Assembly (NCBI GenBank): GCA_016934715.1
Contig: JAFGSI010000048.1
Span: forward strand, 1-64,000
Source of the DNA: Anaerolineales bacterium
GTDB taxonomy: Bacteria; Chloroflexota; Anaerolineae; Anaerolineales; Villigracilaceae
Length of the DNA: 64,000 nucleotides
Reading direction: 5' to 3'
The notes beneath the pieces are model-generated. The model was not told where the DNA came from and made no database searches. It saw nothing but the letters and a program-made list of their open reading frames with translations. This document shows positions 47,082 through 64,000 of this stretch, one piece after another. Position 1 is the stretch's first letter. The number at the start of each line of letters is the position of its first letter. The translations under genes were made by a program, and so were the position numbers.

Positions 47082-47091
47082 GGAGTCTCTC

Positions 47092-50000
47092 TTAAGTGCC
47101 TTTCTGTTGCGGTTCCAGTCGTTTGAGCGCCCGGTCAAGGAGCGACAGGAGTTCCTGCTCGTTGAGAGAGCCTTTGCGCAGCAGTTTCTGCCCGAAATCG
47201 GAGAGTTGTTTCTGTTGCTCTGCGGTCAGGTCTGCCCCGGTGACGACCACGACAGGAATATCGGTCAGGGTACGGGTCGTGCGCAACTTTTCCAGGATCG
47301 CAAAGCCATCCATGTCCGGCATGAACAGATCGAGGATGACGGCCTGGGGCGGGTTGTTGGACAGGATTTCCCAGCCCCGGGGGCCGCCTTCAGCGAGGAT
47401 CGGCTTGAACTGGCTACGCTCCTCGAGGATCTTGCCGATCAGGCGCAGGTCTTTGGGGTCGTCGTCGATGACCAGGACTTCCCGGATGGTGCCATCACTG
47501 TTCAGGCGGTTGAGGGCGTTGAGCAAATCGTCTTCGAGTATCGGCTTGACGAGGTAATCGGCCGCTCCCAGGCTGAAGCCTTTTTCCTCCTCTTCGAGGA
47601 TGCTGCAGATGAGGATCGGGATGTCGCGCGTTGCGGGATCTGTCTTGAGTTCGCTCAACACGGTCCAGCCATCTTTTCCCGGCATCATGATGTCAAGCGT
47701 GATGGCATGCGGTTTCAGGTGGCGGGCACGCTCCACCGCCTGGCTCGGATCGGTCAGGGCGATGACCTGGAAGCCTTGCGGCTGCAGGTAGCGTTCATAG
47801 AGTTCAATGACCTGTTTATCGTCATCGATGGCCAGGATGACGTGCGCCGGATGGCGGCTTTCGGCCACGGTGCGGGATTCGCCATCCTTGCCGCGCGGAA
47901 CCGGCAGGGTGAAGAAGAAGGTGCTTCCCTGTCCAGCTTCGCTGCTGACGCCGATGCGGCCACCATGCAGTTCCACCAGGCGCCTGGAAATCGAGAGACC
48001 GAGGCCGGTTCCTCCTGTCTTGCGGGTCGGAGAGGCGTCAACTTGCGAGAAGGGCTGGAAGAGCTTGTTCTGGTCATCGGTGGTGATGCCCGGTCCGGTA
48101 TCGATGACCTTGATCATGATCTCGGGCTGGTTTTGCGGCCCGCGTTCGAGGGTTGCCGCAATGGTGATCGAGCCCTTTTCGGTGAATTTGGCTGCATTGG
48201 ACATCAGGTTGATCAGCACCTGCCGAATGCGGACCGCGTCGGCGCGGATGATCGGCAGGTTGTCGGCAATCGCTTCCTCCAGTGTGACCGGCTTGTCCTT
48301 GATCAGACCGCTGACGGTCGGGATGACGCTCTCGATCGTATCGGCAATGTTGACGTCGTCGAAGGCCAATTCCATCTTGCCGGCTTCGATCTTGGACAGG
48401 TCGAGGATGTCATTGATCAGGCGGAGGAGGTGCTGGCCCGAGTTGTAGATCGCGTTGAGGTCCTGTTCCTGCAGTTCGGTGACCGGTCCATCGATGCCCT
48501 TCAGGATCACCCTTGAGAATCCGATGATCGAGTTGAGCGGCGTGCGCAATTCGTGGCTCATGTTGGCCAGGAACTGGTCCTTGAGACGGTCCAGTTCACG
48601 CATTTCCTGGATCGCCTGCTGGGCAAGTTCATAGGAGCGGGCATTGTCGATGGCTACGGCGACCTGGTCGGCGAGGGTCTGCAGAACGGCGATGTCAGCT
48701 TCTGCAAAGGCATCCGTCTTCTCAGACTGGATGTCGACTGCGCCGATGATGCGGTCACCGATGCGCAGAGGGATGGCGGCTTCCGCCCGGGTGTCGGGCA
48801 ACAGCGGGTTGGGTCGGTGGGTCGGATCGGTGGCGGTGTTGTTGACAATCAGGGGCTGCCCGGAAGCGGTCACGGTGCCAACGATCGAGCGTGAGCCGAC
48901 CTGCAGCGTGTGGCCGTAGGCGAGCATCTCTTTTCCGGCTCGGCCGGTGGCGGCAGACAGGTTGGCCTTGAACCCGGTTTCTTCGATGGTGAATATACCT
49001 GCATGGTAGAAACCGAAGCGATCACGGATCAGGTCTACGGTCCGGCTGAAGAGCGTGCCCAAGTCGAGGGTCGAGGTGACCAGGCGGCCGATCTCGGCGG
49101 AAATGGCCAGGTATTCGTTCTGCCGGCGCAGGGCCTCTTCGGAGGAACTGATCTGATCGAACAGGCGGGCGTTCTGGACGGCGACCGCGGCGGTGTTGGC
49201 GATGGCATTCAACAGGCTGCGATCGTGCTCGCTGAAGGCGTCAGGATTGGTATAGCTCTGGACGGCCATCACACCCAGCGTCTGCTCGCCGACGAACAGT
49301 GGCACGCCCAGGAAGCATTTTGCCGGTTCCCCGACAATGGGAATGTTATGCTCGCTGAGCCACTCGGAAATTTCACCTTTGATCAGGACGCTTTCGCGGT
49401 TGGCAAGAATGTAACCGGTCAGGCCTCTGTCGTCGGGCATGCGGGTGATCTCGCGGTCGACCTGGGATTCGGAAACGTTGAACGGGAAGACGACCTCGTG
49501 ATTTTCGTGGTCGTGCCAGCCAATATAGAAATTGGATGTGTCGAGCAGGCGGGAAACACCCCGGAAAACCTCCTCGAGCACCTGGTCCAGGTTCAGGCGG
49601 GAAGCGAGCCCTCGGCCAAGATCGTTGAGGGCGGCCATTTCCTCGGCCCGCAGCTGGGTCTGTTCGAACAGGCGGGCGTTGTAGAGGGCTGTCGAAGTCT
49701 GATAGACGATGTTCTCGATCAGGCGGGTTTCCCGTTCGTCGAGCTGGCGGCCCGCCTCGTGGATGTCGAGTCCGATGGTGGCGATGATCTCGTCACCGGC
49801 GACGATCGGGTAGATGTACATATTTTGAACGCCGCGCTTGACCATCACCTCCTGCAGGCCGGACATCAGCGGGTTGTTCTGGACGTCCTCTACGAAGAGT
49901 GGTTTGCGCGTGCGGAAGACTTCTTCGTTGGCCGGTGTCCCGCTGATCGGAATGACCAATCCGATGCTCGAAACTCCCTCAGCCGGGGCCGGCGAATCGG

Positions 50001-52107
50001 CAGCCAGGGTCAGGGAGGACCTGTCTTCATTCACTATGGCGATGCCGACACGGTCGATGTGGAAGGCCGAGACGATTTCATCCGCCACGTACTGCAGATT
50101 CTCGCGAATGTCAAGTGAGCCTGCCAGGGTGGAGACCAGCCGGTTGAGCAGGGCCATTTCGTCCGCACGCTGCTCGGTGTCGGCGAACAGGCGGGCGTTC
50201 TCAAAGGCGATGGCTGCCTGGCTGGCGATGGCGGTCAGAACCTCAAGCTCATGCTCGGAATAAGCGTTGGGTTGTTCCTCGTCCTGGGCCGAGATGATGC
50301 CGATCACCCGTTCTCCCAGCAACATGGGGACGCCGATCCAGCATTGTGCGGGTGGATTCGTGCCCACCGTCACGTGTTCGATGCCCATTTTCTCCATCGT
50401 GCCGGGAAGATCTTCCGGAACCAGGACCGGCTTGCGATTCTTGATGATGTACTCGGTGAACCCGCCTTTCAATGGGAGATCCGGCACTTCGGTCGGGTTC
50501 CCCTGCTCGATCGCGATCGGGAAGGACAGGCGCTTTGCCTTTTCATCATAGAGCGCGATGAAGAAGGTGGATGTGTCCATCAGGCGGGACGCCTGGCGGT
50601 AAACCGTCTCGGCGATCCCCTGCGGTTCCAGCAGGGCCGATAGCTGACGGCCCATCTCGTTCAGGATCGCCAACTCCTCGTTGCGGACCCGGGTCTGTTC
50701 GAACAGGCGGGCATTCTCAAGGGCGATGGCCGCCTGGGAGGCGATCGAGACAAGCAGGTTGCGCGAGTTTTCATTAAAGGCGCGTGGCGTGGTATAGCTC
50801 TGGATGCCGATCATGCCAACCGGGCGGGTGCCGATCATCAAAGGTGCGCCCAGCCACGATTTGGCCTCCGAGCCGATCATCTCGATCCCCAGTTCGGCGA
50901 GTGTCGTGTCGATATCCTCCTCGATCAGCAAAGGTTGACCGGACTGGATGATATGTTCGGTCAGGCCCTTGCCGCCTTTGCGCGATTGCCAGGGGCGTTT
51001 TTCGTTGTTCTCATAGGCCAGCTGGAAGGCGATCTCGTTTTCCTTGTCATTGTAGAGCGCGACGTAGAAGTTGGTCGTGTCCATCAGGCGGGAGGTGTAC
51101 TTGTACACATTCTCGACGATGGGGCCAATCTGGGTCTCGGCGGTGAGGGCGCGGCTCATTTCGTTCAATACACCCAGTTCTTCGGCGCGGGCCTGGGTCT
51201 GTTCGAACAGGCCGGTGTTTTCGATGGCGATGGCCGTGTGCCGGGCGATCGAGGTCAGGAGTTCCAGGTGCCTCTGTTCGTACAGTTTCGCGTTCGTAAG
51301 GCTCTGCAGGCCCAGGGCCCCCAAGACGCGCTCCCCGATGATCAGCGGAACACCCATCCAGCAAAGCGGAGATCTTCCCTTCCCCAGCGGAACGAATTCG
51401 ATCCCCAGCTCCTGCATGCGCTCTTCCACATTCTCCGGGATGAAGATCGGTTCGCGACGGGTGATCATGTAGTCGGTCAGGCCCTTGCCCATCGGGCGAG
51501 TCGTGCCTGACGATTCCACCTGTATCTCGCCGTGCTCGACCACCAGGGGCAGGGAGATCATCTTCGTGTCTGCGTCAAAGATGGCGACGAACATGTGGTG
51601 GACAGGCATCAGGCGGGCCGTGTATTTGTAGACGGTTTCGGCCAGGCCCTGCATGCCCATCTGGGCCGAGAGTTCACGGCCCATTTCATTCAGGATCGCC
51701 AGTTCCTGTGCCTGCCGTTCGGTCTGTTGGAACAGCCGGGCGTTCTCCAGGGCGAGCGAGAGCTGATCGGTGATCTGCCTGACGAGCGCCTGTTCGTCCT
51801 GACTCCAGACATGGTTCTCAAAAGGGCTGAGGATCTCGAGCATCGCCCAGTTTTCAGCATCCATCCGGAATGGAACAGCCAGGCTGGTGTCGGTGGTCAC
51901 CACGTCGGGTGTGACCACCGGCTGGATGGTTGCTTTCTTGGCTGCCGTTTCAGGCTGGACGCGCCCAGGTTCAGTTCCGGGCTGCGCCGGACCTGGGATC
52001 GGCCTGGGCTGCGGGCGCTCCTTTCGAACGGGAGGCGCCTCGCCTTCGGCCTGCTTCATGTCATCAAAGATCTGATCAAGCCGTTTCTGTAGGCGTTTCT
52101 TCGACAT
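47092..52107 (-). CDS. Giant hybrid histidine kinase: seven GAF, kinase, two receivers
   Basis: A 1671-residue cytosolic protein. ATG 52107 is preferred to the TTG at 52113 (GAGGAG upstream). After a basic, Pro-rich linker there are seven GAF-type units; the first is truncated and most end with a short helix of the form ALENARLFEQT. Unit seven has the FYHAGIF...LPDTRAEAAIPL type found in the neighbouring GAF proteins. HisKA follows with H1185 in MSHELRTP, then HATPase, then two receivers (about 1420-1535 and 1542-1660), each with an acidic pair and acceptor Asp (LDIMMPGKDG, LDLFMPDMDG). No membrane segment. The start overlaps the end of the ParA gene by 32 bases. It may serve as the shared transmitter for the upstream GAF proteins. 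Confidence 0.9.
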   Translation of the reverse strand: MSKKRLQKRLDQIFDDMKQAEGEAPPVRKERPQPRPIPGPAQPGTEPGRVQPETAAKKATIQPVVTPDVVTTDTSLAVPFRMDAENWAMLEILSPFENHVWSQDEQALVRQITDQLSLALENARLFQQTERQAQELAILNEMGRELSAQMGMQGLAETVYKYTARLMPVHHMFVAIFDADTKMISLPLVVEHGEIQVESSGTTRPMGKGLTDYMITRREPIFIPENVEERMQELGIEFVPLGKGRSPLCWMGVPLIIGERVLGALGLQSLTNAKLYEQRHLELLTSIARHTAIAIENTGLFEQTQARAEELGVLNEMSRALTAETQIGPIVENVYKYTSRLMDTTNFYVALYNDKENEIAFQLAYENNEKRPWQSRKGGKGLTEHIIQSGQPLLIEEDIDTTLAELGIEMIGSEAKSWLGAPLMIGTRPVGMIGIQSYTTPRAFNENSRNLLVSIASQAAIALENARLFEQTRVRNEELAILNEMGRQLSALLEPQGIAETVYRQASRLMDTSTFFIALYDEKAKRLSFPIAIEQGNPTEVPDLPLKGGFTEYIIKNRKPVLVPEDLPGTMEKMGIEHVTVGTNPPAQCWIGVPMLLGERVIGIISAQDEEQPNAYSEHELEVLTAIASQAAIAFENARLFADTEQRADEMALLNRLVSTLAGSLDIRENLQYVADEIVSAFHIDRVGIAIVNEDRSSLTLAADSPAPAEGVSSIGLVIPISGTPANEEVFRTRKPLFVEDVQNNPLMSGLQEVMVKRGVQNMYIYPIVAGDEIIATIGLDIHEAGRQLDERETRLIENIVYQTSTALYNARLFEQTQLRAEEMAALNDLGRGLASRLNLDQVLEEVFRGVSRLLDTSNFYIGWHDHENHEVVFPFNVSESQVDREITRMPDDRGLTGYILANRESVLIKGEISEWLSEHNIPIVGEPAKCFLGVPLFVGEQTLGVMAVQSYTNPDAFSEHDRSLLNAIANTAAVAVQNARLFDQISSSEEALRRQNEYLAISAEIGRLVTSTLDLGTLFSRTVDLIRDRFGFYHAGIFTIEETGFKANLSAATGRAGKEMLAYGHTLQVGSRSIVGTVTASGQPLIVNNTATDPTHRPNPLLPDTRAEAAIPLRIGDRIIGAVDIQSEKTDAFAEADIAVLQTLADQVAVAIDNARSYELAQQAIQEMRELDRLKDQFLANMSHELRTPLNSIIGFSRVILKGIDGPVTELQEQDLNAIYNSGQHLLRLINDILDLSKIEAGKMELAFDDVNIADTIESVIPTVSGLIKDKPVTLEEAIADNLPIIRADAVRIRQVLINLMSNAAKFTEKGSITIAATLERGPQNQPEIMIKVIDTGPGITTDDQNKLFQPFSQVDASPTRKTGGTGLGLSISRRLVELHGGRIGVSSEAGQGSTFFFTLPVPRGKDGESRTVAESRHPAHVILAIDDDKQVIELYERYLQPQGFQVIALTDPSQAVERARHLKPHAITLDIMMPGKDGWTVLSELKTDPATRDIPILICSILEEEEKGFSLGAADYLVKPILEDDLLNALNRLNSDGTIREVLVIDDDPKDLRLIGKILEERSQFKPILAEGGPRGWEILSNNPPQAVILDLFMPDMDGFAILEKLRTTRTLTDIPVVVVTGADLTAEQQKQLSDFGQKLLRKGSLNEQELLSLLDRALKRLEPQQKGT

Positions 52108-52861
52108 AAGCAATCAACTCCTCAGCCAGGCTACGATATTGTAAAGCGCCGCGGCTGTTGGGCTTGTACTGCGTAATGGGTAAACCAAGGATTGGACTTT
52201 CGCGCAGTTTGGTGTCGATCTCGATCGTGGTTTTGAATAGGCCTTCGCCGAAGGTGCGTTCCAATTGCTCGCGGATGTTGCGGTGAGTGCGGTTGCGCTG
52301 GTCGAGCAGCGTGACCAGGATCCGATACGCCAGACCGGGATTGTCTTCGGCGCGCACCTGGCGGACGATGGTCATCATGTCCCGCAGGGCATATGCAGAG
52401 AAGTATTCGGCCTGGGTGGGGATAAGCAGCAGGTTGGCTGCAGTCAGGGCGTTAATGGTGATTGCGCCGAGGGACGGCGGGCAGTCCATGATGATGAAAT
52501 CATAGTCCAGGGAGCCAACCGCCTCGATGGCAGTCCGCAGCCGTGCGGTAAAGTTGATGTACACCGGCAGGACCTGTTCGGCATGTTCGAGGCTCAAGTT
52601 GGCGGGGATCAGCTGTAAACCAGCGAAATTGGTCTCCAGGCGGGCATCCAGCAAGGGCGAGGCGTCGAGCAGGATTTCACCGCTCGTGCGTTCGACCTTG
52701 CCGGGTTCGAAACCCAGCGCCAGGGTCAGGTTGGCCTGCGGATCGAGGTCCATGAGCAGGACCCGGCGCCCCAGTTCACCGATTGCCGCCCCAAGAGACA
52801 ACGTGGTGGTGGTCTTGGCGACCCCACCCTTCTCGTTCGAAATTGCGATCACATATGCCAT
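52076..52861 (-). CDS. ParA/Soj-family ATPase
   Basis: A 261-residue P-loop ATPase of the ParA/MinD group. The deviant Walker A KGGVAKTTTT is at 11-20 with both lysines (K11, K16), and MDLDPQANLT and DFIIMDCPPSLG follow. There is no N-terminal DNA-binding domain and no parB or parS beside it, so it is not a standard chromosome-partition locus. Similar stand-alone ParA proteins position large protein clusters, such as chemoreceptor arrays. Here it sits between the GAF proteins and the hybrid kinase, and overlaps the kinase gene. Confidence 0.92.
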   Translation of the reverse strand: MAYVIAISNEKGGVAKTTTTLSLGAAIGELGRRVLLMDLDPQANLTLALGFEPGKVERTSGEILLDASPLLDARLETNFAGLQLIPANLSLEHAEQVLPVYINFTARLRTAIEAVGSLDYDFIIMDCPPSLGAITINALTAANLLLIPTQAEYFSAYALRDMMTIVRQVRAEDNPGLAYRILVTLLDQRNRTHRNIREQLERTFGEGLFKTTIEIDTKLRESPILGLPITQYKPNSRGALQYRSLAEELIAYVEETPTETA

Positions 52862-52894: not shown

Positions 52895-54682
52895 TTATTT
52901 TGATTTCCGTCTGGCAGGCGACTTCTTTGTCCCTGCCGGAGGTTGTTTGACAGGTGTGTCCACGGCCGGGGCCGCGGCAGCATAAGGCCGGATCTGAACC
53001 TGGCGGGCTCCCAGGGCGCGCCGTAGTTCCTCCATGGCCAATTCCAGCATGGATTGAGGATCGGTGGTTCCCCGGATCTTGGTGGTGATCTCCGAGACTG
53101 TTCGCTCGCGATCGGCGCGGCGGGTGGTCTCCTCGAACAGGCGGGCATTTTCCAGGGCCAGCGCAACTCGGTCGGCGACCGCCTGGACCAGTGCGGTCTG
53201 GTTCTCGGTCCATTCGCGGGTCGTATCGCTGTTCCGGATGTCCAGGACGCCGATGATCTGGTCGCGCAACTTCAGGGGAACCGCAAACGCGATGCCATGC
53301 CTGTCCTCGTGCCTGGTGACCAGGCCGCTGGCCACGGCCGATTGGATCTCGGGCAGGTTGAGGAGGTGGTCGAGCGGGGCAGAATCACTGCCGATGTACT
53401 GGAACCCGGTCAGCTGGGTCTCCTGGGGCAACTGCTGCCAGGCCTGGCGTAGATACTGCCCATAGACCGTTCGGGCCTCGGACAGGGCCTGGGCTGTATC
53501 GCTGAACAGGCGGGCATTTTCGATGGCGATGGCGATCTGGTCGGCCAGGATGCTCAGGACTTCGATATCTTCAGCATCAAAGGCGGCATTCTTTTTGCTC
53601 TGCAGATCCAGAACGCCGATGATGCGATCGCCAGCCTTGAGCGGCAGGGTTGCTTCCGAGCGGGTTTCAGGCAGGTTCACATAGCCGGGTTCCACATCAG
53701 AGGCGAACCGTGGCTGACCGTTGGCGGATACCCATCCGATCAGGTTGTCCTTGCCGACCTCGACCTGGAATTTCCGGGCGAGCAGGTTTTGCCCTTCGGG
53801 GCTGTTGGCCGCCCTCAGGATCGCACTGCGCCCGTTCTCGTTGAGCAGGAAAATAGCGACATGATCGTAGTCGAAGAGATCGGCGACCATGCGGGCGATG
53901 TCAGGCAGCAGTTCAGCCGGGTCGCGATGGGCGGTAGTGGTCCGGGCGACCCGGGCTACGGCCTCGAACTGCGCCGCGCGGCGTTGGGACTGCCCCGTGG
54001 CTGCCGCGAGTTCGGCGGTCCGTTCCTCCACTTGTTGCTCGAGCCCGGCGCGCAGGAGGTCCAGTTCACGGTTGCTTTCCAGCAGGCTTTCCCGGCTGGT
54101 GCGGGCGCGTATGAGGGAGGCGTTGAGGTTGTAGACGGACAGAAAAGCGAAGATCGCATTGGCGAGGAATACAGCCGTCATGTAGAGGGCCATGCTGAAG
54201 GGCTGTTCGAAAAGCGGTTCGATCCATCCTGACCATTCCACATAGGCCAGGCCATAGCCCGCCAGGATGCTGAGCAGGGTCATGAGGATCGTTCCCCACT
54301 GGCCGAGGGCCACGCTGGCCAACAGGATGATCGCCGTCAGGCCGATGAATGCGGCGTCTCGCACCCCAGCCTGAACCCAGGAGCTGTAGACCAGGCCCAC
54401 GAAGCACAGGCTGATGAAAACCGCCGCACTCCGCCGGATGTATCCCCTGCGTAAGGCGAGCCACAGTCCGAAGATGGCCAGTGCCAGCCCTGAGAACACC
54501 CAGTAGGTAGGGGTGGAAGCCGGTACTCCCTGCAAGACGAAGGCGATCAGCAGGCCGACGAAGATGACGATCGTTGACAGGTAGACCCCGTTCAACTGCC
54601 TGGCAAGGATTGTCCGCTCCTCAGTAGCCTGATCCCGGAGAGTAAAGATTTCGCGAACCCATTGACCCATATTCGACCTCAT
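52895..54682 (-). CDS. Membrane GAF protein without output domain (1)
   Basis: A 595-residue protein: about six helices in the first 190 residues (a MASE-like membrane sensor), a coiled coil at about 195-240 (RESLLESNRELDLLRAGLEQQVEERTA in part), a GAF at about 250-400 and a second GAF-like domain at about 430-530. A helical C-terminal piece (ERTVSEITTKI...ELRRALGARQVQIR) and a basic tail (KKSPARRKSK) follow. No HisKA, HATPase, GGDEF, EAL or phosphatase domain is present. The start overlaps the upstream stop (ATGA) and GAGGAAG is close. The ParA gene follows after 33 bases. Confidence 0.85.
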   Translation of the reverse strand: MRSNMGQWVREIFTLRDQATEERTILARQLNGVYLSTIVIFVGLLIAFVLQGVPASTPTYWVFSGLALAIFGLWLALRRGYIRRSAAVFISLCFVGLVYSSWVQAGVRDAAFIGLTAIILLASVALGQWGTILMTLLSILAGYGLAYVEWSGWIEPLFEQPFSMALYMTAVFLANAIFAFLSVYNLNASLIRARTSRESLLESNRELDLLRAGLEQQVEERTAELAAATGQSQRRAAQFEAVARVARTTTAHRDPAELLPDIARMVADLFDYDHVAIFLLNENGRSAILRAANSPEGQNLLARKFQVEVGKDNLIGWVSANGQPRFASDVEPGYVNLPETRSEATLPLKAGDRIIGVLDLQSKKNAAFDAEDIEVLSILADQIAIAIENARLFSDTAQALSEARTVYGQYLRQAWQQLPQETQLTGFQYIGSDSAPLDHLLNLPEIQSAVASGLVTRHEDRHGIAFAVPLKLRDQIIGVLDIRNSDTTREWTENQTALVQAVADRVALALENARLFEETTRRADRERTVSEITTKIRGTTDPQSMLELAMEELRRALGARQVQIRPYAAAAPAVDTPVKQPPAGTKKSPARRKSK

Positions 54683-56346
54683 TCGGCTTCCTCGATGCCT
54701 AATTCGCTCTGCAGCTGGATGATGACCTCGGAACCCGGCAGGGCGCGGCCCAGTTCCTGGACCGTCGTCTGGAGCACGTTGCGCAGGTTGACCGAGCCGC
54801 TGATCTTGGACGTGATTTCGCCGATGGCGCGCTCGGTGGCGGCCCGGCGCTGGGCATCCTCGAACAGGCGGGCATTCTCGAGGGCCAGCGCCACGCGTTC
54901 TGCGGCCGCATTAATGACCGCGATCTCGTTGTCATTGAAGACCCTCTCCTGGTCATCGGGATTGATATTGAGAAATCCCAGGATCTGGCCGCGCAACTGG
55001 ACCGGGACGGCAAGTTTTTTCCCGGGTTGTTCCGGAAGTTCGGTCAGAGGATAAGCGGTCGCACCATCAAAGAAATAACCGCGCAGGGTAGCGGCATCTG
55101 CCAGATCCTTCCAGTTTTGACCGGTTAGTTTTGCGTATGCGTTTTCGGCCTCCACCAACGCCTGGCGGGCCTGCTCGAACAGCCGGGCGTTCTGAATGGC
55201 GATGGCGACCTGATTTGCCAGCGTGGCGATCACCGCGATGTCTTCCTCTTGAAAGGCGTTCTGCTGCGTCGACTGGATATCGAGGGCCCCGATGACCTGG
55301 GCGCGCACCGTGAGCGGCAGTGCCATCTCAGAACTGGTTTCAGGGAGCTCGGGGTTGTTGAAGAAAACTGCGTCCTCCCCTACGTCCAGGGCGATGCGCG
55401 GTCTGCCGGTGCCGGTGACATATCCGACGATCCCCTGTTCTCCAACCTTGAGGCGGTGATTGCGGGCCAGCATGGTCTGACCGCCGATGCTGTTCGATGC
55501 TCGCAGGACGGCGTATTTCCCCGTTTCATCTACCAGGAATATGCCCACATGGTAGAACTCAAAACGCTCACTGATCAACTGGGCGATGGCCGGCAGCAGG
55601 TGTTCCATATCCTGGACCGAGGCGATTGCGTTGGACATGTCGGCAACCATCTGCAATTGCCTGGCGCGGCGGTCTGCTTCCGCAGTGCGCTCAAGGATGC
55701 GGGCTTCCTGGGCTTGTTCGAGGTCCTGCAATTCCCGGTTGGTCTTGATGAGCTCTTGTTCGCTCTGGCGGGCACGCAAAAGCGCAGAATTCAGGCTGTT
55801 CGATGCCAGTCCAAAATTGATGGCGATCATCGCGAATGCGATCGAGGTGATCGCGAAATTGGTCATTGGAGTTGTGGGCGGGCTGATGGATTGGATCAAG
55901 CCCTGGCTAAAAGCCAGAATGATCAAGCCGTGCCCGATGATCAGGGCTGCCGCGACGAAGGCGGCGCCGCGGCCTCCCATGAGCAGGCCGGCAGCCACAA
56001 TTGCCACCGCGATCAGCATTGTGACGGCACGGATCTGGCCCGCATTGACAAAATCGGCATAGATCGAAGCCAGCACAAGAATGGATAGAAAGATCGTGCT
56101 CGCAGAGCGTATCTGCCCGCGCCGAAGCATGTGGATCATCACCGTGATGACGATCACCATTGCGCCGCCAATGGGCAGGAAGATTATGGCGTTGGCGCGC
56201 ACCAGCGCAGATCCCAGGACGGCTGCGAGTGGAACAGCCCAGGCTATTTGCAGGGCGCGAAAAAGCAACCGGGCCTGGCGAGTAATTTCCTCGTCGTGCT
56301 CGAAGGTTGGCGGGAGAGTGAAGAAATCACGTAAGTTCTTCAGCAT
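54679..56346 (-). CDS. Membrane GAF protein without output domain (2)
   Basis: A 555-residue protein started at ATG 56346 (GAGG upstream). About six helices lie in the first 200 residues, then a short coiled coil. A GAF of the FYHVGIFLVDETGKYAVLRASN type follows at about 250-400, with LPETSSEMALPLTVRAQVIGALDIQS. A second, diverged GAF lies at about 430-515, and the shared C-terminal segment (ERAIGEITSKISGS...ELGRALPGSEVIIQLQ) ends the protein. No catalytic output is visible. It is closely related to its neighbours, so the array grew by duplication. Confidence 0.85.
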   Translation of the reverse strand: MLKNLRDFFTLPPTFEHDEEITRQARLLFRALQIAWAVPLAAVLGSALVRANAIIFLPIGGAMVIVITVMIHMLRRGQIRSASTIFLSILVLASIYADFVNAGQIRAVTMLIAVAIVAAGLLMGGRGAAFVAAALIIGHGLIILAFSQGLIQSISPPTTPMTNFAITSIAFAMIAINFGLASNSLNSALLRARQSEQELIKTNRELQDLEQAQEARILERTAEADRRARQLQMVADMSNAIASVQDMEHLLPAIAQLISERFEFYHVGIFLVDETGKYAVLRASNSIGGQTMLARNHRLKVGEQGIVGYVTGTGRPRIALDVGEDAVFFNNPELPETSSEMALPLTVRAQVIGALDIQSTQQNAFQEEDIAVIATLANQVAIAIQNARLFEQARQALVEAENAYAKLTGQNWKDLADAATLRGYFFDGATAYPLTELPEQPGKKLAVPVQLRGQILGFLNINPDDQERVFNDNEIAVINAAAERVALALENARLFEDAQRRAATERAIGEITSKISGSVNLRNVLQTTVQELGRALPGSEVIIQLQSELGIEEAE

Positions 56347-56542
56347 GAGAACCTCAAGGTTGCTGTCGATGATCAAACAGGCCTGGCGGGCTGACCACCA
56401 ACCAGGGGGGAAGGCGCCCGAATAAACGTTCGAAGGAGGGGTTCGTATGGGTCAGCAAGTCGCCCTTCCTGATCGAATCGGGGTCGGCGGGGGCGTTCCT
56501 GGTCTCCTGTTTGGGCTAGGGTCTACCTTCATGGTGTACCTC

Positions 56543-59374
56543 CTACGCCTCGCTCTGCTCGGCTTTGAGCTCAAAGACCACCTGCGTGGCTCCGATCTTT
56601 CGACCGATTTCTTCTACGGCGGTCCTCAGAACGGATTCGATGTCGATCGAAGAACTGATCTTGGAAGAGATGTCACCGATGGCGCGCTCGGTGGCGGCCC
56701 GACGCTGGGTGGCTTCAAGCAGGCGGGCATTTTCCAGCGCCAGTGCCAGGCGGTCGGAGACCGCCTGGACCATGTTCACCTCATCCTCGCTCCAGGGACG
56801 GCCGGAGACCGGCGCCATGAGGTTCAATACACCGATCGTCTGCCCGCGCAGTCTGACCGGTACGGTCATTGCGGCGGTTGAATCTGCATCCTGGGGATTT
56901 ACGATCAGGATCTTGCCGGTGCTCATGGCTGTCTGAATCTCATCGCTGTCAACGGTGGCAGCGATCGGTTGCCCGCCCATCTGGGACTGGTGGTACCCCA
57001 GGAGCATATCCTGTTGAGCAAATGATTCCCATTCCTGGCTCAAATACTGGCGATAAAGGGCATCCACCTCATCCAGGGCTTGCTGCCTTTGACCGAAGAG
57101 ACGGGCATTCTCGATGGCGACCGCAACCTGGTCGGCAAGGATACCGAGCACGGCAACGTCATCCTCCGTGAATATCCCGGCCAGCGTGCTCTGGACATCC
57201 AGGACACCGATGATCTGGCCGCGAACGGTGAGCGGTAGAGCCATTTCGGAACGGGTCTCGGGCAGGTCCGGATTGTTGAAGAAGACCGCATCGGCGCCAA
57301 CATCCAGGGCGATACGGGGCTTGCCGGTCTGGGCAACATTGCCGACGATGCCTGTCTGTCCAACGGCCAGTTTGTGTTCGCGGGCCAGCATGCGCTGGCC
57401 ACCTTCGCTGTTGGCGGCCTGCAGGATGGCGAACTGGCGGGTCGATTCGATCAGGAAGATGCCGATATGGTAGAAGTTGAACTTCTCACTGACCAGGCGG
57501 GTGATCAGGGGCAGCAGGATCTCCAGGCGCTGTTCTCGGGCGATGATGCTGGAAACTTCCCCGACGTTTTGCAGATCCCTGGCCCGCGCCTCGGATTGTT
57601 GACGGGCGACTTCGAGATCGGCAGTCCGTTCGGAAACGCGCTGTTCCAGGCTGCTCAGAAGATCGCTGACCTGCTCAGTCATGGCGTTAAAGATGGTCGC
57701 CAGATCGCCAATTTCATCTTTCGTGGTGACCGGTGCGCGGGCTGAGCGATCGCCGGAAGCGATTCGCCCCGCCACTTCGCTGAGCTGCAGGATCGGGCGC
57801 GCGATCACCTGGGAGACTGCCAGTGCCAGGCCGGCTGCAGCCAGGATCACGGCCAGGGTCACGACGGTGGTCGTGCGGGTGGCTGTTTGGACCGGCTTGA
57901 GCGCTTCGCTGGTCTGCTGGTGAACGACCACCTGCCAGCCAGATTGGGAGATAGCCAGCCCGACCGGGCTCTCCGGATTGTGGGTCTGGACCCTGGCCTG
58001 GCTGACGACGCTGCTGGCGCCCTGGTAATTGATCTGGACGTAGTTGTCTCCGATCGAATTCAAGGCGGCAATTTCATCCGCGGCTAGCGTCTCATCCCCG
58101 AGCAGCAGACCTTCGCTCAGGCGCAGGTCGGAATGGCCGGTCTCGCCAAACTGGCCCTCTTCCAGCAGGGCGATCAAGGCGTTTGCGTCGAGGGTCGTCC
58201 TCAAAACCCCGACCACAATGTGGCTGGCGTCATAGATCGGAACCGCGATGGTGAGCGCATAGGTCTGGCTGCTTTCGTCGTATGCGAGCTCACCGATATG
58301 GATCGCCCCCTGCCCGCCGAGATAGGTCGCCTGCCACCAGGCTTCATCCGCCTGGTAATAGTCCGAGGTCCGGTTCGTGGCAGCGATCAGCGCGCCGTAC
58401 TTGTCGGTCAGGAAGATCTCGACGTTCTCGGGGGACAGCGCCTGGAGTTCCTGTAATCCCTCCGCTGCGGGGTGGGTGAGCACGTTGCGGACGAGCGGGC
58501 TGCTGTCGCTGGCGGTTGCCCAGGCTGTGTCGCGATTGGTGATGATGGTCAGGGCGCTGGTTTCTCCACCGCTGTAGGTTGAACTGACCTGGGCGGCTAG
58601 CGATTGATAGCGCGCCGCAGTGTTCATCAGCAGGTTGATTTGAGCCTGGAGATAGGAGCCGATCTCGTGGCCCAGCCGATCTGCAAGCGCCTGAGAGGAT
58701 ACCCCCACCTGGTCGCTGAGAGCATTGCGGGTCAGGGTTATGGTCACACTGGCGATCGAGGCGGCGGCGATGATGACGATGATGGTGAAGAAGATGATGA
58801 GCTTGTTGCGGAGTGAGTAGGACGAGAACGCCCGGGCGGTCGAGGTCACATAGGTGCCCAGCACCAGGGCAACCAGGACGGCGACAACGATCTGGAGAGT
58901 CGGCAGGCTCAATCGACCGGGAGGGTTGAAGACCTCGATCAGGATCGAAACGATGGCCGAGGTGATGTATACCGGCAAGGCGCGCCTGGACTGTTTCTGA
59001 TCGAAGGCTGTGCTGGAGATCATCATGGAGCCAAAAAGTCCGCCGGCTCCCAGAATGATCCCCAGGCCCTCGAACAAGACTGCCAGGACCGGGTACAGGA
59101 GGGCAGCGCCTATCGTCAGGACAGCTGCGCTCCTGGCGATCCGCTCGTGACGGCTCCACCAGATGGCCGGGATACAACTGAGCAGCAGTCCGGCAAGGAT
59201 CCCTATCGCAACGAAGATCTGCCAGACCTGGATCTGTTGGGCAAGGATCAGGCTGTAAACCAGGCCGAGCAGATATGCCATGGCCAGAGCAACGGATGTC
59301 CAGAAGATGCTCTTCACCCTGGCGCGTTCTTCCGGGGAAGGGGAAAACCGGGTTGGATCTGTGTTCATGGCCAT
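56543..59374 (-). CDS. dCache-like/HAMP membrane GAF protein without output domain (3)
   Basis: A 943-residue protein; ATG 59374 has GGAGAAGG upstream. Layout: about six helices at the N-terminus (to about 200), one more helix (NKLIIFFTIIVIIAAASIASV), an extracytoplasmic domain of dCache type at about 235-490 (DYYQADEAWWQATY, YALTIAVPIYD), a helix, HAMP (RPILQLSEVAGRIASGDRSARA), a coiled coil, a GAF (FYHIGIFLIES...LPETRSEMALPLTVRGQ), a second GAF and the shared C-terminal segment. This should sense external ligands and pass the signal inside, but no transmitter is present. A 196-base gap separates it from gene 2. Confidence 0.85.
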   Translation of the reverse strand: MAMNTDPTRFSPSPEERARVKSIFWTSVALAMAYLLGLVYSLILAQQIQVWQIFVAIGILAGLLLSCIPAIWWSRHERIARSAAVLTIGAALLYPVLAVLFEGLGIILGAGGLFGSMMISSTAFDQKQSRRALPVYITSAIVSILIEVFNPPGRLSLPTLQIVVAVLVALVLGTYVTSTARAFSSYSLRNKLIIFFTIIVIIAAASIASVTITLTRNALSDQVGVSSQALADRLGHEIGSYLQAQINLLMNTAARYQSLAAQVSSTYSGGETSALTIITNRDTAWATASDSSPLVRNVLTHPAAEGLQELQALSPENVEIFLTDKYGALIAATNRTSDYYQADEAWWQATYLGGQGAIHIGELAYDESSQTYALTIAVPIYDASHIVVGVLRTTLDANALIALLEEGQFGETGHSDLRLSEGLLLGDETLAADEIAALNSIGDNYVQINYQGASSVVSQARVQTHNPESPVGLAISQSGWQVVVHQQTSEALKPVQTATRTTTVVTLAVILAAAGLALAVSQVIARPILQLSEVAGRIASGDRSARAPVTTKDEIGDLATIFNAMTEQVSDLLSSLEQRVSERTADLEVARQQSEARARDLQNVGEVSSIIAREQRLEILLPLITRLVSEKFNFYHIGIFLIESTRQFAILQAANSEGGQRMLAREHKLAVGQTGIVGNVAQTGKPRIALDVGADAVFFNNPDLPETRSEMALPLTVRGQIIGVLDVQSTLAGIFTEDDVAVLGILADQVAVAIENARLFGQRQQALDEVDALYRQYLSQEWESFAQQDMLLGYHQSQMGGQPIAATVDSDEIQTAMSTGKILIVNPQDADSTAAMTVPVRLRGQTIGVLNLMAPVSGRPWSEDEVNMVQAVSDRLALALENARLLEATQRRAATERAIGDISSKISSSIDIESVLRTAVEEIGRKIGATQVVFELKAEQSEA

Positions 59375-59393
59375 TCTGCTTGCCTTCTCCAAA

Positions 59394-61148
59394 TCATTGG
59401 GTGTGTTCATGCCGGGCTTCCGGATCTGGTTGCAGTGCTCCGGGGCGGATCTGCACCACAACCTCCGAGTTGCCCAGGACGCGGCTCAATTCTTCAGCTG
59501 CGGTTCGAAGGATGGAGTCAAAGCGTGTCGAGGCGCTGATCTTTCCAGAGATATCGGATGTGGCCCGCTCGATCTCGGCGCGCGAGCGGGTGGTTTGCAG
59601 CAGGGTGGCGGTTTCAATGGCGATGGAAAGGCGCTCTGCCACCGCCTCGGCAATGTCGATGTTGTCCTGATCCCAGGTGCCTCTTTCGGGAACGCGAATG
59701 TCCATCACGCCGATGACCTCACCGCGCAGCCGGACCGGGATTGCCAGGCTGGCGAAGGAAGCGTTCTGGCCCTCGTCTGCCACGATGATCCCCTGCTCGA
59801 GGGCTTTCAGGACCGGCAGCGTATCCAGTGGACGGTCCAGAGGCTGGACGATGTTTTCCGAGATTCGATACCCGAGTTGAGGCTGGATGGAACGCAAACC
59901 CTGCCAGAAGCTCTGCAGATAATCGCTGATCGTCCGCTGTGATTCCGAGAGCAGGCGCTGAGCCTCTTGATAGGAGCGGACGTTCTGGATGGCAACCGAG
60001 ATCTGGTCGGCCAGGGTCGAGAAGATGGCGATGTCCTCCTGGGTGAAGGCGCGGTCCGCGGTGCTCTGGACGTCGAGGACCCCGACGATTTCCTGGCCGA
60101 CGCGCATCGGCAAGGCCATTTCGGAGCGTGTGTCCGGCAGGAGCGGGTTGGCAAAATGGACGGCATCTTCTCCGACGCTCAAGGCGATTCGTGGCCGACC
60201 GGTACCGGCGGCATAGCCGACGACGCCGGTCTCCCCGACTTCGAGCTTGTGACCGTTACGGACCATTTCCTTGCCGCCTTCACTGGTGGCTGCCCGCAGA
60301 ACCGCGAATCTGTGGTTGTCGTCAAGCAGGAAGATGCCGACGTGATAGAACCCGAAGGGTTCACCGACCAGCGTGGTGAAGTTCTCCAGCAGTGTGTCGA
60401 GATCCTGCATCACCGTGATCGAGCGGGCGACCTGGGCAATGGCTTCGAACTGGGCAGCGCGGCGCTCGTTGCGAAGATTGGCGGACTGCAACTCGACGGT
60501 CCGCTCTTCGACCAGTTTTTCGAGCCCCGAACTGAAGGTTTCCATTTCTTCGGTGCGCTGCCTGACGATCTCTTCGGTGGCCTTCATCCTCGCGATGTTT
60601 TGCTGTAGACGATTGAGCATCAGGCTCAGGATGAGGGTGCTGCCCATGACGACACTGGCGATGATGGCGATATCTGAGATCCCGGTCTCGGTGAATGAAG
60701 AGGCAATCAATCCATTCATATCCGCGACGCCGACGAGCACAACCGAGAGCGTCGTCAGGATGCCGAACAGGATCGCCCCTCTCACGCCCAGGGTCAAACC
60801 TCCCAGGATGACCGCCATGCTGAATGCGCTGATGGCGATGTCATGAATGCCGTTGCCCACAAATAATAAGTAGTTGATCGCGATCAAACCGCCCAGTGGG
60901 ATAACGATCCGGGCCGGCCAGGTGATTCCGCGAAATAAGAGCCCATAAGCCAGGCTCCCAAGGATCGCCAGGGAGCCCAGCGCATACAAGGTCGTGGCAC
61001 GCCCGCCGCCGATGGCATCGATGATCGTAACAGCGATGGACACTGCTACGACGATCAGCAGGGCGTACTGCAGCAGGCGGCGCGATTTTCTACCTTGTTC
61101 ATCGTTATAATCTGCCGATTGGAAGAATGAGGCGAAGAAGTTTTCCAT
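59394..61148 (-). CDS. Membrane GAF protein without output domain (4)
   Basis: A 584-residue protein with AAGGAG before ATG 61148. About six helices (27-185) are followed by a helical linker (RQRTEEMETFSSGLEKL), a GAF (FYHVGIFLLDDNHRFAVLRAAT...LPDTRSEMALPMRVGQE) and a second GAF-like part (about 440-535). The shared end is ATSDISGKISAS...ELSRVLGNSEVVVQIR. No output domain. Gaps to the neighbours are 19 and 11 bases, so it is co-transcribed. Confidence 0.85.
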   Translation of the reverse strand: MENFFASFFQSADYNDEQGRKSRRLLQYALLIVVAVSIAVTIIDAIGGGRATTLYALGSLAILGSLAYGLLFRGITWPARIVIPLGGLIAINYLLFVGNGIHDIAISAFSMAVILGGLTLGVRGAILFGILTTLSVVLVGVADMNGLIASSFTETGISDIAIIASVVMGSTLILSLMLNRLQQNIARMKATEEIVRQRTEEMETFSSGLEKLVEERTVELQSANLRNERRAAQFEAIAQVARSITVMQDLDTLLENFTTLVGEPFGFYHVGIFLLDDNHRFAVLRAATSEGGKEMVRNGHKLEVGETGVVGYAAGTGRPRIALSVGEDAVHFANPLLPDTRSEMALPMRVGQEIVGVLDVQSTADRAFTQEDIAIFSTLADQISVAIQNVRSYQEAQRLLSESQRTISDYLQSFWQGLRSIQPQLGYRISENIVQPLDRPLDTLPVLKALEQGIIVADEGQNASFASLAIPVRLRGEVIGVMDIRVPERGTWDQDNIDIAEAVAERLSIAIETATLLQTTRSRAEIERATSDISGKISASTRFDSILRTAAEELSRVLGNSEVVVQIRPGALQPDPEARHEHTQ

Positions 61149-61159
61149 CGATCGGCTCC

Positions 61160-63664
61160 TTAAACCTTGCTCTGATTCTGGAACTGGATGGCGACTTCCG
61201 CCCCCGGGATGACCCGGCTGACCTCGCTGGCGGCCGATCGCAGCAGATCATCCACGTCGACCAGCGAACTGATCTTGGCCGCGATCTCTGCGATCGTGCG
61301 TTCCTTGGTCGCCCGCCGCTGGGCGGCCGATACGAGCCGGGCATTCTCGAGGGCCAGGGCGAGCCGCTCGCTGGCGGCCTGCACGATATCGATCTCGTCC
61401 GGGCTCCAGGGGCGATTCAGGTTGGAGCGCACATCTACCACGCCGATGGTCTCACCGCGCAATTTGATCGGGATCGCCATGCTGGCCGGGCTGCCTGGCT
61501 GGTAGTCTGTGTGAATTTGGCCGGCGGTCACCGACTCTTCGGCCCCGGGCAGGCTGACAGGCTGGGCCAGGGAGATGCTCTCCACGCCTGTGTAGCGGTA
61601 CCCGGCGCTTTCTTGGTGGGCCGTCGCAACCTGCCATTCCTGCCGGATGTACTGCCGATAGGTGTTCTGGACTTCATCGAGCGCCTGGCGGGTTTCCTGG
61701 AACAGGCGGGTGTTCTCAATGGCAATGCTGATTTGATCGGCCAGCAGCGAAAGGACGCTGATGTCATCCTGGTTGAATGCTTCGGCTGCTTTGCTTTGCA
61801 CATCCAGAACGCCGAGGATCCGGGTTCCGATCCTGAGCGGCAGTGCCATCTCGGAGCGTGTCTCGGGCAGGTCAGGGTTGCGGAAGAAGAACGCATCTGC
61901 CCCGGTGTCCAGGGCGATCCGGGGATTGCCGGTGTTGGCGACATAGCCTACGATGCCAACCTGACCGATCTCCAGGCGGTGGCCGCGGTCGAGCATGCGC
62001 CGGCCGCTCTCGCTGTTCGAAGCCCTGAGGACGGTGTAGCGTCCTTCTTCGTCGTTGAGGAAGATACCGACGTGATAGAAATCCAATTGTTCACTGATCA
62101 ATGTGGTCACCCTGGGCAGGAGCAACTGGGCTCCCTCGACCGAGGTGATCGTTTTACCAATTTTGGTGATCGCGGTGAACTGGGCGACACGGCGCTGATT
62201 GCTCTCGCGGGCTGCGGTCAGGTCGGTGGTTCGTTCAGTGATCCCTTGTTCCAGAGCGGTCAGATTCGCCCGCAGGCGTGCCGTCATGAGGTTGAAGGCA
62301 TGTGCCAGTGAACCGATCTCGTCCCGGGATGTTTCGGTGGCCACGGCATCCAGTTCGCCCTCACTGATCCGCTCCGCAACCTCGGTCAGCCGGTTGAGGG
62401 GGCTGGTGAGCAGGCGGCCGAGCGCATAGCTGGCCAGAACAGAGCCGGCCAGCGCGAGTCCGGAGAGCAATAGGCCGAAAACGAATGTGGCCGAGGCCTG
62501 ATCCTGAACCTGGGTCTGGGCATCGATGTAGGCGGCGTTCATTTCATTGACTGGAACGATGATCCCAATACTGTATCCTGCCGCCGGGATTGGTTGGTAG
62601 GCCAGATAGTAATCGACGTCATTGAATGTAACCTGCGCCAGATCGCTCTCGCCGCTGGTCATCGCTTCGAAGAGCGGCAGCAGTTCTGCCGGGCCCGCCT
62701 GCAGGACGGTCAGCTGCGGCACTTCGTTCACCGGGACTTCTTCGGGAGCGATGTTGAAGTCTTGATAGCCGCGATCTGGCAAGGCGATCAATCTTCCCAC
62801 CGGATCGATCAGGAATGCATACCCCGTCTCGCCAATGCGTATTTCCAGAACACGACGGGTGATCGTCGCCAGCTGCACGTCGGCCCCGATGACCCCGCGG
62901 AACCTGGCGTTTTCATCGTAGACCGGGCTGCTGTTCGTGACGATCAAACCCGTTAGGGCTGGATCCTGGTACGGGGGAGTCCAGATGCGAGCGCGGCCAG
63001 GATTGTTGCCCGGGGAGGCTGCGGTATAAAAGAGCTGCTGGGTGGCCGTGAAATCAGGCGCCACCAGATTGGCCAGATCGATGTTCGGGTAGTAGATCGT
63101 CAGATCATCCCGGCTGATGTAATAGAGACCAACGATGTCGGGATTCGACTGCAGGATGTTGGGAGCGAAGAAGTCAAGGTGAATGGCTGTATTGAGTTCA
63201 GCGAACATTTGCTCGCCAGGTTGGACATGTGCGGGGACGAAGATCGCGGCCGGGTCGCTGTTGGCATTGTCCCAGGCGCCACTCCCCAGGCGGCGCAAAT
63301 TTGTGGATGCATCCCAGTATGCACCTGTTGAAAAAATCTCTTCCTGGGCCAGGATGCTGGCGGTGTAAAGTGTCGCCGTTTCCACCACCTCGTCGACATT
63401 GACGAAGAACTGATTGATCGCCTGGGCCTCTCGATCCAATTGGACCAGGAGCTGGTCATCTGTCCGGGTGAGGACTGCCTGCTCAAATTGGCTGCCCAGA
63501 AGGTCCTGGACTTGCTGGCTGCGCGACAACACGAAAAAGCCGATCACCACGACTGTCAATCCTGCGATCGTTATGATCGTCAGGGTGATCCTGGTCCGCA
63601 AGGAGGTCCTCTTCCTGGCGGGCGAGCTCTGTTCGGGGTTGTGATCGGAATCTGGGATCGTCAT
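61160..63664 (-). CDS. dCache/HAMP membrane GAF protein without output domain (5)
   Basis: An 834-residue protein. One helix (about 26-46) leads to a large extracytoplasmic double-Cache domain (about 50-380; YYISRDDLTIYYPNID, VIGADVQLATITRRVLEI, GETGYAFLIDPVGRLIA). A second helix, HAMP (SPLNRLTEVAERISEGELDAVA), a coiled coil, a GAF (FYHVGIFLNDEEGRYTVLRASN) and a second GAF follow. The shared C-terminal segment (ERTIAEIAAKISS...VIPGAEVAIQFQ) closes it. This is a chemoreceptor-like or kinase-like sensor that lacks both a methyl-accepting and a kinase domain. Gaps to its neighbours are 11 bases on both sides. Confidence 0.87.
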   Translation of the reverse strand: MTIPDSDHNPEQSSPARKRTSLRTRITLTIITIAGLTVVVIGFFVLSRSQQVQDLLGSQFEQAVLTRTDDQLLVQLDREAQAINQFFVNVDEVVETATLYTASILAQEEIFSTGAYWDASTNLRRLGSGAWDNANSDPAAIFVPAHVQPGEQMFAELNTAIHLDFFAPNILQSNPDIVGLYYISRDDLTIYYPNIDLANLVAPDFTATQQLFYTAASPGNNPGRARIWTPPYQDPALTGLIVTNSSPVYDENARFRGVIGADVQLATITRRVLEIRIGETGYAFLIDPVGRLIALPDRGYQDFNIAPEEVPVNEVPQLTVLQAGPAELLPLFEAMTSGESDLAQVTFNDVDYYLAYQPIPAAGYSIGIIVPVNEMNAAYIDAQTQVQDQASATFVFGLLLSGLALAGSVLASYALGRLLTSPLNRLTEVAERISEGELDAVATETSRDEIGSLAHAFNLMTARLRANLTALEQGITERTTDLTAARESNQRRVAQFTAITKIGKTITSVEGAQLLLPRVTTLISEQLDFYHVGIFLNDEEGRYTVLRASNSESGRRMLDRGHRLEIGQVGIVGYVANTGNPRIALDTGADAFFFRNPDLPETRSEMALPLRIGTRILGVLDVQSKAAEAFNQDDISVLSLLADQISIAIENTRLFQETRQALDEVQNTYRQYIRQEWQVATAHQESAGYRYTGVESISLAQPVSLPGAEESVTAGQIHTDYQPGSPASMAIPIKLRGETIGVVDVRSNLNRPWSPDEIDIVQAASERLALALENARLVSAAQRRATKERTIAEIAAKISSLVDVDDLLRSAASEVSRVIPGAEVAIQFQNQSKV

Positions 63665-63675
63665 GGTTTGACCTG

Positions 63676-64000
63676 TTATTTCGGCTGTTCTTTCTGTTGA
63701 ATCTGGACAACGACTTCGGATCCGGGCAGGGCGCGACCGATCTCTTCGGCTGCGACCTTGAGGATCCCATCGATGCTGGCCGACTCACCGATCCGGGCGG
63801 CGATATTGCCGATGGTCCGTTCCTTGGCCGCTCGTTTCTGGGCTGCGCTGAACAGGCGGGCATTTTCCAGGGAAAGGCTGACGCGCTCGGCGATGGCCTG
63901 CATGAAGGTGACGTCCTCGTCCGAGAACGCGCGCTGCGGTCGATTCGCCCGGATGTTGAGCACGCCGATCACCTCATCCCGCGCCTTGATCGGGATGGCG
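63676..64000 (-). CDS. C-terminal part of a further GAF protein (cut by window edge)
   Basis: The frame is open to the right edge of the window; the visible 108 codons give the end of a GAF domain (AIPIKARDEVIGVLNIRANRP...ERVSLSLENARLFSAAQ) and the shared C-terminal segment (ERTIGNIAARIGES...EIGRALPGSEVVVQIQ). It clearly belongs to the same family as the next five GAF genes. Most of the gene, including any membrane or kinase part, lies beyond base 64000. Confidence 0.8.
   Translation of the reverse strand, partial: AIPIKARDEVIGVLNIRANRPQRAFSDEDVTFMQAIAERVSLSLENARLFSAAQKRAAKERTIGNIAARIGESASIDGILKVAAEEIGRALPGSEVVVQIQQKEQPK

Follow-up and report, generated by a model that had tools for sequence, protein, structure and literature searches.

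Output-less GAF sensors in a row with a ParA-type ATPase and a hybrid histidine kinase: a candidate shared-kinase system in Anaerolineales

To which partner could a sensor pass its signal if it carries no output domain of its own? This question is raised by the window, a 64,000-nucleotide (nt) stretch of DNA from an Anaerolineales bacterium (Chloroflexota; contig JAFGSI010000048.1 of assembly GCA_016934715.1), which ends in a row of genes for GAF proteins that an original prediction, made from the letters alone, had described as complete sensors lacking any output. The answer that we favor, at a probability of roughly 60%, is that many output-less membrane sensors share one soluble hybrid kinase encoded beside them, to which they dock via a common module, and that a ParA-type ATPase positions the resulting cluster. 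At the level of sequence, the gene order, the lack of output domains, the identity of the sensors’ C-terminal tail, the homology of the sensor and kinase modules, and the presence of a basic peptide and a half-GAF on the kinase are established. The window is part of contig C69 of a 4.09-Mb genome, and coordinates of the row beyond the window are given on C69.

The sensor row and its C-terminal tails

Five open reading frames (ORFs) of the row are complete in the window, all on the minus strand, and a sixth is truncated by the window end.

52895..54682, minus strand: P01, last sensor of the row, 595 amino acids (aa); about 5 transmembrane (TM) segments, GAF1, short GAF2, tail; member of the positional orthologue group preceding ParA
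52982..53119, minus strand: C-terminal tail of P01, residues 522-567; start of a GAF domain by its sequence (helix-helix-strand)
54679..56376, minus strand: sensor P02, 565 aa; about 6 TM segments, two GAF, tail
56543..59461, minus strand: sensor P03, 972 aa from a TTG start; TM, dCache, HAMP, two GAF, tail
59394..61148, minus strand: sensor P04, 584 aa; about 6 TM segments, two GAF, tail
61160..63664, minus strand: sensor P05, 834 aa; dCache, HAMP, two GAF, tail; its core was modeled
61181..61315, minus strand: tail of P05, core residues 326-370
63676..64000, minus strand: C-terminal end of the sixth sensor, P06 (107 codons, 63676-63999); the gene reaches contig position 65397

All five complete sensors contain two GAF stretches, together with dCache and HAMP in two of them and 5-6 hydrophobic segments in the other three (for P01, P02, and P04, TM segments come from a simple hydropathy count). 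The predicted row of five is real but extends past the window edge: the full row, C69:52895-81847, comprises 12 sensors and one 1228-aa multi-GAF protein (P13), which also bears the tail. Upstream of P13 lie a receiver gene and a small gene, and in the relative G013, Pfam identifies the two genes in the corresponding position as receivers.

In the Pfam search, no kinase, cyclase, phosphatase, or MCP domain matched any of the five window sensors at E ≤ 1, which, together with the ORFs, confirms the original prediction. Nor was an output domain found in any of the 12 sensors of the full row (E ≤ 0.01 for the seven further ones) or in 64 sampled sensors (E ≤ 0.001), which consist of the last window sensor and one sensor from each of 63 loci, drawn from a total of 283 complete sensors counted in loci. 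The MCP signaling domain, taken by itself, scored 0/64 and 0/12 in the same sets, and HisKA and HATPase, which are present on the adjacent shared kinase, were found on no sensor chain scanned. What Pfam did recognize in the 64 sampled sensors was GAF (64), HAMP (37), dCache (26), and MASE11 (8), and NCBIfam, applied to four of the five window sensors, returned nothing specific, only partial matches far under the cut-offs. The core of P05 was predicted by AlphaFold2 to be a tandem GAF (120 sequences; mean predicted local distance difference test [pLDDT] 93.3) in which the second GAF region takes a GAF fold; the 50 structure matches listed, out of 925, comprise tandem GAF proteins, phytochromes, PDEs, and proteins with a single GAF fold. 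The listed PDB matches include fRMsr, which we take to be a GAF-fold enzyme working with cysteines; the sensors’ GAF1 is without any cysteine in 116 of 120 sequences.

A catalytic domain hidden in the second GAF region was thus rejected on the basis of the Pfam scans, the tandem-GAF model, and the structure matches. Frameshifted kinase remnants were rejected as well: intergenic spacing in the row runs from −68 to +166 nt and is mostly below 35 nt, and because neighboring ORFs nearly abut or overlap, there is no space for lost kinase ends. A local oddity of a single assembly was rejected since the array recurs in relatives, and the same arrangement in dozens of genomes argues against chance loss and for sensors that are output-less by design.

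The two GAF units that had been assigned to each sensor are present but unequal. Across 120 sequences, GAF1 is full and conserved (2.89 bits per column), whereas GAF2 is short and more variable, with 1.40 in its core, and the tail behind it reaches 2.2-2.6. Aligned with hhalign, the tail matches GAF1 in register over its first 43 columns (87-93%, E 3.8e-6 to 3e-7), and it gave at most 1.8% against GAF2, the GAF2 core, and the end of GAF1. With the alignment confined to these 43 columns, no complete GAF was found in the tail itself; in one relative, G017, the corresponding stretch continues into a complete GAF at residues 532-706. Judged by these alignments, the tail is the first part of a further GAF domain, as had been supposed. 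In the P05 model, the C-terminal part forms a hairpin (269-277/280-289), a helix (297-341), and a second helix (346-360).

Among 406 sensors whose ends are complete, 405 have the tail, at a median of 10 residues before the C-terminus, a frequency that is not independent, because sensors were defined partly by reaching the tail region; the tail also lies near the end of the multi-GAF protein in 23 of 26 cases. The first and last sensors of the arrays are positional orthologues, with 103/140 and 316/359 of their top-five cross-genome hits keeping position, compared with a baseline of 7% and 17% of all sensors. These observations bear on the idea of a degenerate expansion, in which sensor kinases without their catalytic ends would have spread by duplication and retained little function. 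Tandem paralogues in variable number, with a variable GAF2, are what such a process would leave behind, but the nearly constant tail close to the C-terminus, its better conservation than that of the GAF2 core, the fixed end members, and the wide retention of the array make it very improbable.

A recurrent gene order and a module shared with the kinase

On the 3′ side of the row, the same strand encodes a ParA-type ATPase, a hybrid kinase, a fusion of a pyridoxal phosphate (PLP) enzyme to a receiver, and an EamA transporter. The conservation of this order was followed in a panel of 41 genomes (our own and 40 relatives) and in 73 loci from named genomes, taken from the best 80 of 516 confirmed hits and biased to close relatives, with neighbor genes unselected; the gene-order set of 81 loci joins 10 genomes to these 73 loci, minus two duplicates. 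Array matches at E ≤ 1e-60 occur in 34 of the 41 genomes, at least three of them in 29, and a ParA orthologue (E ≤ 1e-55, the criterion used for all relatives) is present in 28 of these 29 genomes and in 3 of the 12 others. Of 161 genomes drawn evenly from the phylum, our own included, 15 matched at E ≤ 1e-80, of which 13 fall in the same family, one in another family of the order, and one in another class; among six genomes of the same class outside the order, none matched in this draw. The array in the other Chloroflexota class (G050:C528:26986-43635; contamination 8%) may represent a transfer or a binning error. All but one of the 73 loci are labeled as Chloroflexi/Anaerolineae lineages, the exception being labeled Blastopirellula. 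The arrangement is conserved and testable, and a named strain, Anaerolinea thermolimosa IMO-1 (L070), carries the array.

The recurrent order in Anaerolineales, which the original prediction had overlooked along with the ParA gene and the ParA-partner-like start of the kinase, is receivers, multi-GAF protein, sensors, ParA, kinase, with 2-12 sensors in the 24 arrays of which both ends were seen. ParA follows the sensors in 70 of the 75 loci (of 81) with 600 nt or more of sequence behind the last sensor: immediately in 68 and likewise in L080, and after two GAF fragments in L081. The remaining five are L042, L064, L072, and L073, where the available sequence ends 0.8-3.7 kb on, and L084, which is weighed below. 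Behind ParA, the 68 direct loci have a kinase ORF (64) or a GAF ORF (4). The corresponding features of the window are as follows.

47092..52107, minus strand: shared hybrid kinase; basic peptide, linker, half-GAF, full GAFs, HisKA, HATPase, two receiver domains
52054..52107, minus strand: N-terminal basic helix of the kinase, MSKKRLQKRLDQIFDDMK, resembling ParA-activating peptides
51574..51885, minus strand: kinase module homologous to the sensor C-terminus, residues 75-178; half-GAF hairpin, long helix, second helix, first strand of the next GAF

The kinase contains seven GAF stretches and two receivers. Kinases of this kind start with the consensus M(S/P)KK...(K/R)RL..LF.(D)I, followed by a Pro-rich linker and then by the last 61 columns of a GAF domain (97.3%, E 2.4e-11 against GAF1; 99.2%, E 7.4e-20 against GAF2); in the Anaerolinea-type lineage, a PAS-like stretch was seen by eye before this half-GAF. 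The AlphaFold2 model of the kinase N-terminus (45 sequences, mean pLDDT 87.5) predicts a helix at residues 3-19, a linker with pLDDT of about 50-58, a hairpin (75-81/87-93), helices at 103-148 and 152-166, and then a full GAF. A profile comparison of the sensor C-terminus with the kinase N-terminus gave 99.6% and E 1e-24 over 118 aligned columns, and the AlphaFold2 models of the two agree in spacing, with a helix of 45/46 residues and then one of 15. Given this alignment and the matching spacing, the end of the sensors and the first structured stretch of the kinase are the same homologous module.

How might the two modules interact? It had been suggested that the tail could complete a partner’s fold, and the finding that the kinase begins with the end of a GAF domain speaks for a version of this idea in which the tail (helix-helix-strand 1) would slot in next to strands 5-6 of the half-GAF on the kinase, completing a reduced GAF. 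The two pieces do not overlap, as the tail aligns with the first 43 columns of a GAF and the piece on the kinase with the last 61; the tail strand is conserved yet unformed in the monomer model; and the half-GAF is predicted to be a hairpin plus helix. However, strands 2-4 are missing from both pieces, so that a complete GAF cannot form, and the termini are homologous over 118 columns including the helices, so that each already has a counterpart of the other’s helix. This homology speaks for side-by-side pairing of the shared module no less than for fold completion, and we regard the insertion model as unlikely, though worth keeping in mind.

A natural variant is informative here. G017 lacks both the array and a ParA orthologue, and its multi-GAF protein and kinase form one chain of 1259 aa, in which P13 residues 551-1096, tail included, align to 31-581 (64% identity), and residues 992-1406 of the window kinase align to 839-1253 (77% identity). 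This fusion also bears on whether the neighboring kinase is the partner at all. The sensors might instead form homodimers or mixtures, signal among themselves or to kinases encoded elsewhere, and thereby antagonize other GAF kinases in a ligand-dependent way, with the adjacent kinase only co-transcribed. GAF proteins are abundant in our genome, which holds 68 matches to the last sensor when array members are counted, and many loci have further kinases downstream on the other strand. Against this stand the fusion in G017, the sensor module on the kinase, and the kinase or GAF ORF that comes next in 68/68 loci with ParA directly after the array; together they leave such a scheme with a small share of the probability, somewhat below that of the insertion model.

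The ParA-type ATPase and the basic peptide of the kinase

Between the last sensor and the kinase lies the following gene.

52076..52861, minus strand: ParA/Soj-type ATPase, 261 aa, with a deviant Walker A motif, KGGVAKTT

The protein matches 1wcv (E 2.2e-43, Soj-type), and in the alignment to 1wcv and 2bek, both the deviant Walker A motif and DLDPQ, with the catalytic Asp, are present; 2bek carries A instead of the second D of DLDPQ. The chromosomal ParAB pair of the genome is located elsewhere, on contig C51. The kinase starts with an ATG at 52107 and overlaps parA by 32 nt, and in 65 placed pairs (four more are unplaced), the overlap of the two frames is 14-47 nt, mostly 32 or 35. Over 12 residues, the kinase N-terminus has a net positive charge in 64 of 65 cases, and the peptide pattern, which was derived from these same sequences, occurs in 65 of 71 cognate kinases and in 4 of 757 other genes, including 2 of 30 other kinases. 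The LF..I part of the peptide lies outside the parA overlap, and five kinases with an overlap of at most 26 nt retain the (R/K)(L/I)..(L/I)F core, one of them (L066) without the lysine pair.

Variation among relatives touches the link between peptide and ParA. The peptide in its usual form is missing in G029 and G034, two of the three loci without ParA; by eye, the kinase of G029 begins with a sensor-like GAF2, and that of G034 has membrane segments of its own. In G021, the contig ends just before the kinase start, so that the place of ParA lies off the contig, and the kinase retains the peptide. In each of five further ParA loci (L153, L154, L155, L157, and L159), a sensor with the tail precedes ParA, and a similar peptide begins 32-35 nt ahead of the parA stop (recognized by a looser pattern in four and by eye in one). 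Three of them (L153, L154, and L155) represent a smaller locus type with 1-2 sensors, ParA, a receiver-less kinase, a PALP-receiver protein, and a receiver; L154 and L155 have an additional PALP. In L159, a 113-aa protein directly behind sensor and ParA (L159:9097-9435; G039:C8) consists, by eye, of the peptide, a linker, and a GAF2-like half-GAF piece; it has no Pfam match and no kinase, and the next stretch shows no match to GAF or kinase. This one locus suggests that the peptide and half-GAF form a separable adaptor between ParA and the sensors.

Several findings weigh against a shared kinase that is docked through the module and held by ParA. The tail strand is not formed in the sensor monomer model. 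The half-GAF profile matches 69 of 69 cognate kinases, but it was built from 60 of them. A late GAF match was also obtained for 14 of 24 kinases labeled as non-cognate, three of the 14 being pieces of cognate kinases, so that a late match alone is no proof of a half-GAF; it is the lack of upstream room, the predicted disorder, and the profile alignment that together suggest one. For the peptide, 53 of 65 pairs have 32 or 35 nt of its code inside the end of parA, and part of its conservation may therefore belong to ParA. It resembles ParB N-termini only moderately, with 32 of 69 kinases scoring above the 95th percentile of other proteins (p 1.5e-24, among related sequences); for this comparison, the start could be read in 14 of 30 ParB loci, and in three of the 14 the box lay too deep in the protein to be scored. 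G017, although without ParA, keeps a peptide-like stretch, and L084 has an array without ParA across about 8 kb downstream.

Taking these points into account, we infer for the shared-kinase arrangement a docking of sensors to the kinase, the binding and positioning by ParA, and an integration of signals, in the following way. Each sensor would take in its signal by its own periplasmic or membrane part, GAF1, and GAF2, and the signal would travel along the long helix into the conserved C-terminal module, which consists of the last two strands and helix of GAF2 followed by the helix-helix-strand of a truncated third GAF. The kinase has the same module near its start, and sensor and kinase modules would pair, with the interchangeable sensor heads competing or mixing for one kinase. 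Phosphate would be passed on by the two receivers of the kinase and by the stand-alone receivers, and the ParA ATPase would bind the basic peptide at the kinase N-terminus and place or spread the cluster, as ParC/PpfA does with chemoreceptor clusters.

Known systems and neighboring genes

In literature searches limited to open-licence PubMed Central and directed at GAF proteins of this group, ParA and its partners, and the strand order of GAF domains, no published description of this locus was found. To our knowledge, output-less receptors that share one kinase are known mainly from chemotaxis. Partners of ParA/MinD proteins are described as carrying positive charge at the N-terminus, in many cases on a short segment with a flexible part behind it (PMC12204374, PMC10241942, PMC7993993); PomX, for example, has a charged peptide at residues 1-22 and then an Ala/Pro-rich region (PMC7993993). 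For chemoreceptor clusters, published work names ParC/PpfA together with a positively charged partner N-terminus (PMC10241942), TlpT as a component with an N-terminal basic peptide (PMC7993993), and ParP as another component (PMC5706961).

The locus has in common with chemoreceptor clusters (MCP-CheA-CheW, ParP/TlpT) that are positioned by ParC/PpfA the many output-less receptors, the one kinase, the receivers, the ParA-type ATPase, and the basic N-terminal peptide. Unlike them, it is built from GAF domains and a HisKA hybrid kinase (HisKA, HATPase_c, and two receivers), no MCP, CheA, or CheW was found among the scanned locus proteins, and the ParA peptide sits on the kinase itself. The system would thus resemble a chemosensory array in its working and not in its parts. 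More tentatively than the shared kinase as such, one may picture a chemoreceptor-like array that arose a second time, from GAF parts, in which up to a dozen kinase-less receptors mix around one hybrid kinase through the shared terminal GAF module; with its own ParA-binding peptide, the kinase would let the whole cluster be placed and handed on to daughter cells as chemotaxis arrays and carboxysomes are. We put this at somewhat less than even odds. In the manner of ParAB, McdAB, and PomXYZ, the locus combines a Soj-type ATPase with a presumed partner that starts with a short positive helix and a Pro-rich linker, but this presumed partner is a histidine kinase and not a DNA-binding, carboxysome, or division protein.

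The proposed pairing with another protein’s kinase also recalls RetS-GacS, where a sensor acts in this way; a partner of the RetS-GacS type has kinase domains of its own, whereas up to 12 sensors here have none. The fold of the sensor core is that of tandem GAF sensors such as PDE2/5/6, phytochromes, and CyaB (3lfv, 8avw, and 1ykd are among the matches listed), which, as far as we know, bear their output domain on the same chain. If the proposal is true, a large, mostly uncultured group of Chloroflexota would hold a conserved second solution, the locus would show a sensor kinase cut inside a GAF domain with its sensor half multiplied, and a kinase would be added to the cargos of ParA-type ATPases.

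Inside relatives’ arrays, six other proteins were scanned, of which four are NMT1/THI5-like, one is Peripla_BP_6, and one is without a match. Periplasmic binding proteins in arrays (L104:13910-14887, L106:12692-13678, L108:9185-10201, and L109:2297-3487) are possible ligand-delivery partners of single sensors, which fits the sensing of external ligands.

Downstream of the kinase, two conserved neighbors were noted in the window.

45405..47138, minus strand: threonine-synthase-like PLP enzyme fused to a receiver domain
44421..45374, minus strand: EamA-family membrane protein

Such a PALP-receiver protein was seen in 61 and EamA in 57 of the 68 loci with ParA directly after the array. The fusion protein contains an SFKDR motif and, in its receiver, an LDLMMP motif, and an enzyme under phosphorelay control is, as far as we know, unusual. 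As the specific output of the system, this fusion was not retained: it occurs in G017 and G034, without the array or a ParA orthologue, and a second copy, 71% identical, lies at C7:31624-33288. Further on, downstream of EamA, a receiver/kinase cluster is found on the opposite strand in G009, G010, G016, L012, L021, and others.

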